Below are positions 3,580-7,826 of a stretch of 40,188 nt of DNA, in pieces. The translations under genes and the position numbers were made by a program. The notes below the pieces were generated by a model that was not told the DNA's origin, did not search any database, and saw only the letters and a list, made by a program, of their open reading frames with translations. The first letter of the stretch is position 1. Every line of letters starts with the position of its first letter. The stretch is from positions 1 to 40,188 of the forward strand of contig JANEIH010000006.1 of assembly GCA_024513425.1 (NCBI GenBank). Direction: 5' to 3'. The DNA comes from Sulfurimonas sp. (GTDB lineage Bacteria; Campylobacterota; Campylobacteria; Campylobacterales; Sulfurimonadaceae).

Positions 3580-4368
3580 TTGAATGAGACCTTGGAGATG
3601 CGTATTCAAGAAGAGATAAAAAAGAATGAAGAGAAGCAAAAGGTGATGTTTTGGCAGTCACGCTTTGCCTCTTTGGGTGAGATGCTTGCAAATATTGCCC
3701 ATCAGTGGAGACAACCGCTCGCAGAGCTTAGCTTAACACTCTTTTCTCTCAAAAAAGCAGCATTCAATCAAGATATCGATGAAGCGGGGATGCTTTATAA
3801 TGAAAGTAAAGCGCTGATAAAAAATATGTCCAATACAATAGAGGACTTTTCTAACTTCTTTAAGCCAGGTAAAGAAAAACAGCACTTTATGCTGCGTGAG
3901 AGTACAGAGGAGGCACTTCACATCTTAAAAAGAGTTCTTAAAAAAGATATGATTCAAGTAAAAACAAGCTATGAAGATGTGAGCGTTTTAGGTATTACGA
4001 ATGAATTTACACAAGTTATAATAAATCTGCTGAAAAACTCTCGAGATGCTTTTATGGAAAACAGAGTGCCTATGCGTGAGATAGAGCTATATAATGCATA
4101 TACCTACAACAAAACAAAAAAAACACTCTATAAAAAGAACAGATATATACCGCTAAATAAAAAAGAGAGGCAATTTTTAGAGCTACTGCTAGAGTATTAT
4201 GAAAAAGAGATATATGTTGTTAGTGATGCAATTATTAAAAAATCTCTCCGGGCAGATGAAGTGAGTGACGATAGACTTAGAACCTTCATTCGTAGATTTC
4301 GAGCAAAAACATCCAAAGAGTTGATCAAAAACATAAAATCAGAAGGCTATCAAATAGTGATAGCCTAA
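3580..4368 (+). pseudogene. Kinase/response-regulator chimera, 3' part of the split gene
   Basis: The coiled coil and phosphoacceptor domain are intact (H41 in ANIAHQWRQPL), and the ATP-binding domain begins with an N-box at 141-155 (NEFTQ..LLKNSRD). The G1, F and G2 ATP boxes are missing. From about residue 165 the sequence becomes the C-terminal winged helix of an OmpR-type regulator (LNKKERQFLELLLEYYEKE ... LRTFIRRFRAKT ... GYQIVIA). An in-frame deletion seems to have removed the rest of the kinase and the receiver domain and fused the remains. Residues 165-167 (MRE) at the junction are encoded by a TGCGTGAG copy (4073-4080). The product cannot be an active kinase; it could still dimerise and bind DNA. 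Joined to the PAS part by a -1 shift it would be about 412 residues. Confidence 0.75.
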
Positions 4369-4518: not shown

Positions 4519-5117
4519 AGTTTTATCCTTGAAGAATTTAAATTTTTTAAATAAGACAAAATTTGTCTGATTTAAATTTCAGTGGAATATTATCCGATTT
4601 TTTTCAAGGAAATATTGATATATATCAAGAGATAAAATTTTATCTTCGGCAATAGCAATGATAAACATACCCATTTGTCATATTCATCTCTTTTGAAGAT
4701 ATTTGCATGTCATATCTATGAGAGAACCGATGACTCTCTCTTGTGCTTTGAATCTTAGTGTGGCATCACTCATATCTTCAAAGAGATCTCTGTTTACTTG
4801 TCAAAATTCAATCTTTTATACCTAAAAGAAAATTCCAATCAATGTAGATTTTGTCTATCTAATAATTTGCAATCACTTTTCCCGTAGTATTGTTTACAAG
4901 TCCTGCATCGGAGCAACCTGTGTTTGAGTTTATGTTCATTCCCCAATGATTCGTAATGCGCTCAACCGTTTGTTAGCTCTTAAAGTGATATCAGCAGTTT
5001 AATGTAAGTTGTGTTAAAGGACAATAATAATTTTTGTCACTTTTTTGTCACTTTAAAAAGTTACTCAATAGAGATTAAATGGATCTAAAGAGAATATTAT
5101 ATAAGCTTAATAAAAGT
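4519..5117. other. Gene-poor stretch with decayed coding remnants
   Basis: About 600 bases without an intact gene. The first part is AT-rich and may hold the promoter of the small exported peptide. From 4684 to 4972 the minus strand carries two open remnants (listed separately). The rest, to the alpha-operon promoter, shows no gene, RNA or repeat that I can identify. Confidence 0.6.
4684..4972 (-). pseudogene. Decayed gene remnants, family not recognised
   Basis: Two short minus-strand frames look like protein rather than random sequence. One (4972 to 4859) reads through RITNHWGMNINSNTG and CSDAGLVNNTTGKVIANY to a stop. The other (4800 to 4684) reads through NRDLFEDMSDATLRFK and AQERVIGSLIDMTCKYLQKR to a stop. 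Neither has a convincing start, and both are preceded closely by in-frame stops. They may be fragments of one or two lost signalling or sensor genes, given the neighbouring decayed kinase. Confidence 0.35.
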
Positions 5118-5130
5118 TTTACATTTGTTT

Positions 5131-5139
5131 TGCTATAAT
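5131..5139 (+). promoter_or_regulatory. Extended -10 promoter of the alpha operon
   Basis: TGCTATAAT is a perfect extended -10 element (TG-N-TATAAT). No convincing -35 box lies at the usual distance, which is common for primary promoters in Campylobacterota. Transcription would start near 5146 and give a leader of roughly 140 bases before rpmJ. Confidence 0.7.
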
Positions 5140-5148
5140 CCCAATCCG

Positions 5149-5262
5149 CTTTGCTGTTTTAACAATGAAAAAGAGTGTTTCTATCTTTATATGCTTTATT
5201 TATATATAGAGTTAGAAGTATTGGCAAGCGAATAAAAGATGCTTTGCCTAAAAACAGTAAAG
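5149..5262 (+). promoter_or_regulatory. Structured 5' leader of the alpha ribosomal operon
   Basis: Bases 5149-5160 (CTTTGCTGTTTT) can pair with 5251-5262 (AAAACAGTAAAG) over 12 positions, with one G-U pair, closing nearly the whole leader. Inside, 5223-5229 (GGCAAGC) pairs with 5241-5248 (GCTTTGCC) with one bulged base, and an AT-rich hairpin is possible around 5175-5215. The closing helix begins almost at the predicted transcript start and ends 12 bases before the rpmJ ribosome binding site. This layout is what a ribosomal-protein autoregulatory leader would look like; in E. coli S4 binds the alpha-operon leader. The binding protein here is inference. Confidence 0.5.
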
Positions 5263-5284
5263 ACAACTAAGACAAGGACTTACG

Positions 5285-5398
5285 ATGAAAGTAAGAGCTT
5301 CAGTAAAGAAAATGTGTGACGACTGTAAAGTCATCAAAAGAAGAGGTATTGTAAGAGTAATCTGCAAGAACCCTAAACATAAACAGAGACAAGGATAA
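5285..5398 (+). CDS. rpmJ: Ribosomal protein L36
   Basis: A 37-residue protein, [20 protein letters not shown] and onward to the QRQG end, with the C-x2-C ... C-x4-H zinc site of the zinc-binding L36 form. AAGGA lies about 6 bases before the ATG. It is the first gene of the alpha operon and stops two bases before rpsM. In many relatives rpmJ follows infA directly; here infA lies 18 kb away on the other strand. Confidence 0.95.
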
Positions 5399-5400
5399 CC

Positions 5401-5763
5401 ATGGCTCGTATTTCTGGTGTTGATTTACCTAAGAAAAAGAGAATAGAGTACGGTTTAACGTATATCTACGGTATTGGTCTTCATACTTCCCGTCAAATTC
5501 TTGACGCTACAGGTATTGACTACAACAAAAGAGTTTTTGAACTCAATGAGGCTGATGTAGCTGCAATCACAAGCGAAATCCGTGCCAACCATATGGTTGA
5601 GGGTGATTTGCGTAAAAAAGTTGCGATGGACATTAAGGCATTAATGGATTTAGGAAGCTACCGTGGTCTTCGTCACCGTCGTGGTCTTCCGGTTCGTGGG
5701 CAAAAAACTAAGACAAATGCGCGTACTCGTAAGGGTAAACGCAAAACTGTCGGCGCAGCATAA
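5401..5763 (+). CDS. rpsM: Ribosomal protein S13
   Basis: A 120-residue protein of normal length. It begins [20 protein letters not shown], contains the helix-two-turn-helix segment ([13 protein letters not shown]), and ends in the basic [19 protein letters not shown] tail that contacts tRNA at the head of the 30S subunit. It starts two bases after rpmJ, so the two are probably translationally coupled. Confidence 0.97.
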
Positions 5764-5773
5764 GGATTAAAGC

Positions 5774-6166
5774 ATGGCAAAAAGAAAAGCTGTTAGAAAA
5801 AAAGTAGTAAAGAAAAATATCGCTCGCGGTATCGTTCATATTGCAGCATCATTCAACAACACATTAGTAACTATTACCGATGAGATGGGAAATATGATTG
5901 CTTGGAGTTCTGCTGGTAGCCTTGGTTTTAAAGGTTCTAAAAAATCTACTCCGTTTGCAGCGCAAGCAGCAGTTGAAGATGCAGTAGAAAAAGCAAAAGT
6001 TCATGGTATCAAAGAGCTTGGTATCAAAGTACAAGGTCCTGGTTCTGGACGCGAAACAGCAGTTAAATCTGTTGGCGCTATTGAAGGAATCCGTGTTACA
6101 TTCATGAAAGATGTTACACCACTACCGCATAACGGTTGTCGCGCACCTAAGCGCCGTAGAGTTTAA
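5774..6166 (+). CDS. rpsK: Ribosomal protein S11
   Basis: 130 residues, full length. The basic N-terminus ([15 protein letters not shown]) is followed by the conserved [15 protein letters not shown] and [10 protein letters not shown] segments and the C-terminal [14 protein letters not shown]11 sits on the 30S platform and contacts the mRNA path. It lies ten bases after rpsM in the alpha operon. Confidence 0.97.
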
Positions 6167-6177
6167 GGAGATTACTG

Positions 6178-6804
6178 ATGGCAAGATATAGAGGTCCAGT
6201 AGAAAAAATCGAAAGAAGATTTGGAGTAAGTCTCAACTTAAAAGGTGAGCGTCGTTTAGCAGGAAAATCTGCTTTAGAAAAGCGTCCATATGGTCCAGGT
6301 CAGCATGGACAGCGTCGTAAAAAAGTTTCTGAGTATGGTTTACAACTCAATGAGAAGCAAAAAGCGAAATTTATGTACGGTATTTCTGAAAAACAATTCC
6401 GTGCACTGTTTGTTGAAGCAAAACGCCGTGATGGCAACACAGGTACAAACCTTATTACACTTATTGAGCAGAGACTTGATAATGTAGTTTACAGAATGGG
6501 ATTTGCATCTACTCGTAGATTCGCTCGTCAACTTGTAACACATGGTCATATCTTGGTAGATGGTAAAAAACTAGATATTCCTTCTTATCGTGTCAAGCTA
6601 GGTCAAAAGATAGAAGTAAAAGAAGCTAGTAAAAACAACAATCAAGTACAGCGTGCTATTGAGCTTACAAACCAAACAGGTCTTGCTCCATGGGTTGATA
6701 TTGATGCTGAAAAAGTATTTGGTATCTTTACTCGTTTCCCGGAGCGTACAGAAGTTGTTATTCCAGTTGAAGAACGCTTAATCGTTGAGCTTTACTCGAA
6801 ATAA
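6178..6804 (+). CDS. rpsD: Ribosomal protein S4
   Basis: 208 residues with an N-terminal 30S-assembly region ([29 protein letters not shown]) and an S4 RNA-binding fold ([33 protein letters not shown]). It is the cysteine-free type, without the N-terminal zinc cluster of some S4 proteins. S4 is a primary 16S rRNA binder. In E. coli it also represses the alpha operon, so it is the natural candidate to bind the leader at 5149-5262. Confidence 0.97.
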
Positions 6805-6830: not shown

Positions 6831-7826
6831 ATGAAAAAGATTAAAACTACACCACTTGCTCCTCAAGAGTTTGAGGTAGAACAAATTAGTGAGAATGAAG
6901 CTAATATTATGGCATATCCGTTTGAGACGGGCTATGCTATATCTTTAGCTCATCCACTTCGCCGTTTTCTATTAAGTAGCTCAGTTGGTTATGCGCCAAT
7001 CGCTATTAAAATCAAGGGTGCTAAACATGAGTTTGACTCTGTTCGTGGTATGCTTGAAGATATTTCTGATTTTATATTAAATCTTAAAGAGATTCGTTTT
7101 AAACTTAATAATGATGCAACAGAAACAGAGATAAACTATAGCTTTGCAGGTCCATGCAGTTTGACCGGATCTGATCTAAGCAATGATGAAGTTGAAGTGG
7201 TAACTCCAGAAGCTCCACTCGCTACACTAAATGAAGATTCAATGCTGAACTTTAGTATTAAAATTGCTCAGGGTATCGGATATGTTGCAAGTGAAGATAC
7301 ATATGAAGAGCTAGAAGATGGATATATTGCACTTGATGCCTACTTTACTCCGGTAAGAAGTGTTACATATAAAATTGAGAATGTACTTGTAGAGGACAAC
7401 CCTAACTTTGAAAGAGTTATCATAAACATCAAAACTGATGGTCAAATCTCTCCAATCGATGCATTTAGAAACTCCTTAGAAGTAATGTATGCGCAATTAG
7501 CTGTATTTAATTCAGAGATTAATATTAAAGCTCCGGTTGCTATTAAGAGAGTTGAAGAGTCATCAGACCTTAAAAAACTAACTGCCAACATAGATAGTCT
7601 TGGTTTAAGTGCTCGTAGTTTTAATTGTCTTGATCGCTCAAATATTAAACTCATTGGTGAAATTGTACTTATGAGTACAAATGATCTTAAAAATGTAAAA
7701 AATCTTGGTAAAAAATCTTACGATGAGATCGTAGAAAAAGTTCAAGAGTTTGGTTTTACAGTTGGTGCTGATTTAGAAGATGATGTAGTAACTGCACTAA
7801 AAAAGAAAATTGAAGTAGCTTCTTAA
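6831..7826 (+). CDS. rpoA: RNA polymerase alpha subunit
   Basis: 331 residues. The N-terminal dimerisation domain includes [22 protein letters not shown] and the beta/beta' contact loops. A flexible linker near 240 leads to the C-terminal domain ([22 protein letters not shown], then [18 protein letters not shown]), which binds promoter UP elements and activators. Placement between rpsD and rplQ is standard. It follows rpsD by 26 bases, the widest gap in the first part of the operon. Confidence 0.97.

Follow-up and report, generated by a model that had tools for sequence, protein, structure and literature searches.

What lies in front of the alpha operon, and whether the predicted leader before its first gene regulates the genes behind it, is the question raised by this locus. 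In the 40,188-nt stretch of Sulfurimonas sp. DNA analysed here (hereafter the window), the operon begins at 5285 and has the order rpmJ-rpsM-rpsK-rpsD-rpoA-rplQ, with all six genes on the + strand: rpmJ (L36, 5285..5398), rpsM (S13, 5401..5763), rpsK (S11, 5774..6166), rpsD (S4, 6178..6804), rpoA (6831..7826) and rplQ (L17, 7854..8204). The first gene is served by the Shine-Dalgarno sequence (SD) AAGGA at 5274-5278 (+ strand). The rpsD gene, encoding the ligand that we propose below for the leader, is single-copy in each of the 14 genomes checked; where its distance from rpmJ was compared, it is about 1 kb further 3'. The gene 5' of the leader differs among lineages, being infA in most other families and unrelated genes in the window's genus. 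Further upstream in the window, an open reading frame on the + strand (3580-4368) has a start resembling a histidine-kinase dimerisation region and an end resembling a response-regulator winged-helix domain; it is possibly a fused or internally deleted gene.

An extended -10 box, TGC-TATAAT (5131..5139, + strand, with TATAAT at 5134-5139), predicts that transcription starts near 5146, giving a leader of about 139 nt (5146-5284), in agreement with the extended -10 box and the leader of about 140 bases proposed in an earlier note on this DNA. A conserved AT-rich promoter element, CTTAATAAAAGTTTTACATTT (5106..5126, + strand), lies 5' of the -10 box; in same-genus loci the pattern TTAATAA..TTTTACATTT is near-invariant at this place. 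In 29 of 30 loci of relatives the -10 hexamer is separated from the first helix of the leader (P1) by exactly 9 nt, the lone exception being the second copy of a tandem-duplicated leader; since this spacing is fixed, the predicted transcript begins at the 5' strand of P1. When the 139-nt leader was folded together with the first 16 nt of rpmJ, the minimum free energy was -37.4 kcal/mol, compared with -25.3 +/- 3.2 kcal/mol for shuffled sequences (z = -3.84), and none of the 200 shuffles was as good. The fold, entirely on the + strand, is a three-way junction closed by P1, a helix of 12 bp including one G-U pair, which is formed by CUUUGCUGUUUU (5149..5160) with AAAACAGUAAAG (P1', 5251..5262). 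It encloses a purine-rich junction strand J1/2, AACAAUGAAAAAG (5161..5173), an AU-rich hairpin P2 (5174..5222), and a bulged, GC-richer hairpin P3, GGCAAGC...GCUUUGCC (5223..5248), which abuts P2 without a linker and in which the first two G-C pairs are invariant. The earlier note had described the same 12-position pairing of the leader's first bases, with the same two hairpins inside it, and both hairpins appear in the computed fold. It had also put the partner strand just before the ribosome binding site; the pairing itself stands, but 11 nt lie between the end of P1' and the SD. A search of the + strand of the leader for terminator-like elements gave none.

This architecture is widely shared within the window's genus, and the leader is a true conserved RNA. 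Searched at the DNA level, 56 of 60 relatives yielded the region or the adjoining rpmJ, and same-genus leaders folded singly nearly all gave the same P1/P2/P3 architecture. A covariance model of this form (R1) has matches in 116 of the genus's 135 genomes, nearly always once per genome; among those of good quality, the figure is 73 of 79. In 55 sequences from the window's genus and family, 93.6% of the cells are paired and 11 pairs are changed on both sides, compared with 5.9 in shuffles, of which 0 of 500 reach 11; this alignment was fitted to R1 and is hence biased to its structure, but the trend is the same in A1, a MAFFT alignment made without such fitting. Compensatory changes occur in all three helices, with two of the doubly changed pairs in the 12-bp P1 and five in P3. 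Of two neighbouring P1 pairs, the first is G-C, A-U or G-U in different relatives and the second C-G, G-C, U-A or U-G. The long-P1 form is also found in other genera of the window's family, with further compensatory changes. In 22 of 29 relatives, 20-25 nt separate P1' from the ATG; in the other seven genus loci, an extra element puts P1' 90-136 nt from the start codon.

In most other families of the order, a diverged RNA of the same topology lies between infA and rpmJ. In outline, this form consists of P1, a J1/2 strand with GAAG, a P2 that opens with AAU and closes with GUU, and a P3 that starts with GG right after P2 and ends with CC. A model built for the diverged form (R2) detects a single copy each in 158 of the 299 genomes of the order, corresponding to 37 of 79 genera, and 57 of 60 newly fetched R2 loci run into rpmJ, the other three ending before the next gene. 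Among 74 sequences from these families, 95.4% of the cells are paired and 19 of 21 pairs are changed on both sides; an unfitted alignment (A3) gave 94.9% and 16 of 21, respectively. None of 500 shuffles reached the observed covariation score, and when the 5' and 3' strands of P1 were swapped between genera, none of 5000 permutations paired as well. The earlier note had suggested covariation in the 12-bp helix and the inner stem among Campylobacterota as a check, and both variants pass it. A single model for both was tried and discarded, as R2 matches no leader of the window's genus (g1); R1 matches one other-family leader, weakly, and its match at locus L045 falls off the leader. We nevertheless treat the two as versions of the same RNA, a conclusion that rests on position, topology, the shared GARU/RUUGG/CC core and the long-P1 forms in other genera of the window's family. 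Among 80 named rpmJ loci, the 68 from outside Campylobacterota give no R2 match, whereas seven of the 12 from this phylum do, these being from Sulfurovum and unclassified relatives. The leader is absent 5' of rpmJ from two Helicobacter loci (L135 and L148) and one Desulfurellales locus, and it is apparently missing from this position also in L048, L049, L057 and L061; thus, judging from L135, L148 and these four, some lineages seem to have lost it. It covers environmental genera and probably Campylobacter, this naming depending on family f11, which we take to be Campylobacteraceae.

The P2 loop is where the two variants part. In other families it mostly reads XCACY, and its complement sits after P1' and before the SD, so that loop and pre-SD region can form a pseudoknot. 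When loops were swapped between genera, 0 of 5000 permutations reached the observed pairing, and a control pairing of the P2 loop with an upstream region was not significant. With CAC and GUG anchored independently, the flanking X pair is C-G in 29 sequences, G-C in 24, A-U in five, G-U in four and U-G in two, with four misfits in 68, and one family uses GGGA/UCCC for the pseudoknot instead. In the window's genus, no signal was obtained for a pseudoknot of the P2 or the P3 loop with the pre-SD region, and we conclude that this genus has lost the pseudoknot or never had it; for this reason the element was out of view of the earlier note.

No Rfam family, Alpha_RBS included, matches the window region at E-values up to 10, and none matches in 16 loci at E-values up to 1, which bears out the suggestion of the earlier note that this leader class is separate from the gammaproteobacterial one. 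The E. coli Alpha_RBS resembles the present RNA in that it lies 5' of the alpha operon, has S4 as its known ligand and, like the leaders of the window's relatives, has a pseudoknot near a ribosome-binding site. However, the E. coli pseudoknot contains the rpsM ribosome-binding site and shows no rRNA mimicry (PMC7247131, PMC10931766), whereas in Campylobacterales a three-way junction precedes rpmJ, and any pseudoknot lies 5' of the SD, with none in the window's genus. The Firmicutes rpsD leader and the Fusobacteriales S4 leader are alike in that S4 binding is shown or predicted and imitation of the S4 site of 16S rRNA has been proposed, both sharing a conserved GUAA that imitates rRNA (PMC7247131); no invariant copy of such a GUAA is present in the aligned Campylobacterales leaders. 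The S4 leaders of Clostridia, Bacteroidia and Flavobacteria (Eckert and Weinberg 2020) are likewise predictions within the same operon, lying 5' of its rpsM or rpsD parts, but those of Bacteroidia and Flavobacteria are described as hairpins, unlike the three-way junction found here. The table of Eckert and Weinberg (2020) consulted here lists no S4 leader for Campylobacterota, and among the openly accessible article texts searched, none describes a ribosomal-protein leader in this phylum. Hence, the kind of element is known, and its architecture in Campylobacterales appears to be new.

Taken together, we consider it likely that 5146-5284 is an autoregulatory ribosomal-protein leader of the alpha operon, and by analogy its ligand is most likely S4. 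In E. coli, S4 is the repressor of the alpha operon, and in Bacillus it binds the leader of rpsD (PMC10931766); S4-attributed leaders have been described in Clostridia, Bacteroidia, Flavobacteria and Fusobacteriales (PMC7247131). A further hint may come from the pseudoknot of the relatives, as helix 18 is part of the S4 site of 16S rRNA, with S4 and S12 described as the sole proteins contacting it (PMC7356742). We scanned the 16S rRNA of five families with a profile of the pseudoknot strands and their flanks (XCACYG / RGUGX'AA). In this comparison, which was prompted by a likeness noticed beforehand, the helix 18 base, at 500-504/541-545 with two A added, ranks 1-3 of about 8000 complementary 16S pairs; among about 400 windows in real 16S helices, with boundaries that are only approximate, it comes first by 5 bits. 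However, a profile built without family f6, several members of which literally have GCACC/GGUGC as their pseudoknot, no longer places it in the top ranks, and 23S rRNA holds chance pairings that score as high as the helix 18 base. Imitation of the base of helix 18 is therefore suggestive only and rests mostly on f6; moreover, since the window's genus has no pseudoknot, the likeness does not apply to the window sequence. Imitation of the 16S h4/h16 strand GCGUGGAGGAU by the junction strand GUGUGAAGAAU was rejected, as the best matches (8-10 of 14 positions) are scattered and no better than chance.

Feedback on the same operon could also be exerted by S13, S11, L17, L36 or a combination of these proteins rather than by S4. 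The leader precedes all of the genes from rpmJ to rplQ, so its position alone cannot pick the ligand, and L17 is a predicted ligand elsewhere (PMC7247131). Nonetheless, we regard another ligand as unlikely, because in six other groups S4 is the ligand proven or predicted in the literature for leaders of the alpha operon or of rpsD. Among the products of this operon, S4 is also the one named as touching helix 18, to which the pseudoknot of the relatives bears a likeness. If no protein feedback were involved at all, the structure might simply stabilise the mRNA or insulate the promoter. Decay that depends on the 5' end of the mRNA is widespread in bacteria, and P1, lying only about 3 nt behind the predicted start, would sequester that end; inserts of about 100 nt tolerated between the leader and the SD would also suit such a role. 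A mere stabiliser, though, would need no invariant junction bases (GAAG, UUGG and CC), no pseudoknot directed to the pre-SD region and no restriction to one operon, and we give this explanation a quite low probability.

The leader might instead be a riboswitch for a metabolite or an ion, or the target of a trans-acting RNA, and control ribosome synthesis in that way; ligand binding is compatible with a three-way junction that holds conserved unpaired bases. Against this very improbable possibility, the RNA is seen only before a ribosomal-protein operon and has no Rfam match, and to our knowledge no metabolite class is known for such genes. Finally, the region is AT-rich and bears palindromes, and P2 gives weak reverse-strand matches, as might be expected of a DNA-level palindromic element or a chance fold; but the many G-U substitutions (U-G 20 and G-U 17 at two positions in other families) fit an RNA, and the shuffle and swap controls stay below the observed values, so that this explanation is hardly credible.

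If the element is indeed an S4-sensing leader, free S4 in excess of 16S rRNA would bind the junction and stabilise the closed form. With P1 closed and its 3' strand ending 11 nt ahead of the SD, loading of the 30S on rpmJ would be hindered, and the genes downstream would be affected by coupling. In most other leader-bearing Campylobacterales, S4 could clamp the pseudoknot that joins the P2 loop to the pre-SD region, such a clamp adjoining the SD; in the window's genus, the 12-bp P1 would have to serve. An entrapment mechanism like that of E. coli would be equally compatible. Control is more probably exerted on translation, since a leader that holds no terminator-like element makes transcription attenuation less likely; the distance of 90-136 nt in seven of 29 genus loci, on the other hand, is a poor fit to simple steric blocking. 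In the window, the sequence before the rpmJ start is complementary to the first codons (5279-5300, ACUUUC AAU GAAAGU), with variants in same-genus loci. As a second regulatory element, this potential start-codon hairpin was rejected: many genus loci show it, yet with a coding side that is almost constant it did not exceed the swapped controls.

We found no description, in the sources covered, of how Campylobacterota balance ribosomal-protein against rRNA synthesis, and the leader provides a further candidate S4 architecture for comparison, as well as a natural experiment, with the pseudoknot in most leader-bearing families and absent from the window's. A bolder reading, which we hold tentatively and lean against, is that Campylobacterales have their own S4-sensing leader class, a three-way junction with a pseudoknot that imitates the helix 18 base and clamps the pre-SD region, the window's lineage having a longer closing helix in place of the pseudoknot. 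If so, one regulatory RNA would have changed its mechanism while keeping its ligand; and if the helix 18 imitation is true, an S4 leader would copy another part of the S4 site than the published GUAA cases do.

Several loci carry additional sequence in or behind the leader. Long low-complexity or repeat-rich spacers (GTAGAAGG-, GGAATACGGATAACG- and ATTGCCTCATCTCC-type) lie between the leader region and rpmJ in L074, L075, L061, L112, L076 and L080-L082, which belong to several families. A structured insert of about 75-130 nt, CTCACCG..AGGTG.AGCTTTAGTGACTGA..GTTTT.ATGAGAA, changes its position in the leader from species to species, being inside P3 in L024, L027, L029, L032 and L040, and between P1' and the SD in L028, L030, L031, L033, L038 and L039. 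Used as a query, a copy of it had 1-4 matches in each of four genomes out of five, with none in the window's genome, and it looks like a small mobile palindromic element. In L031 (G004:C29), the whole leader is duplicated in tandem on the minus strand (673-779 and 782-888), the second copy having no -10 box.
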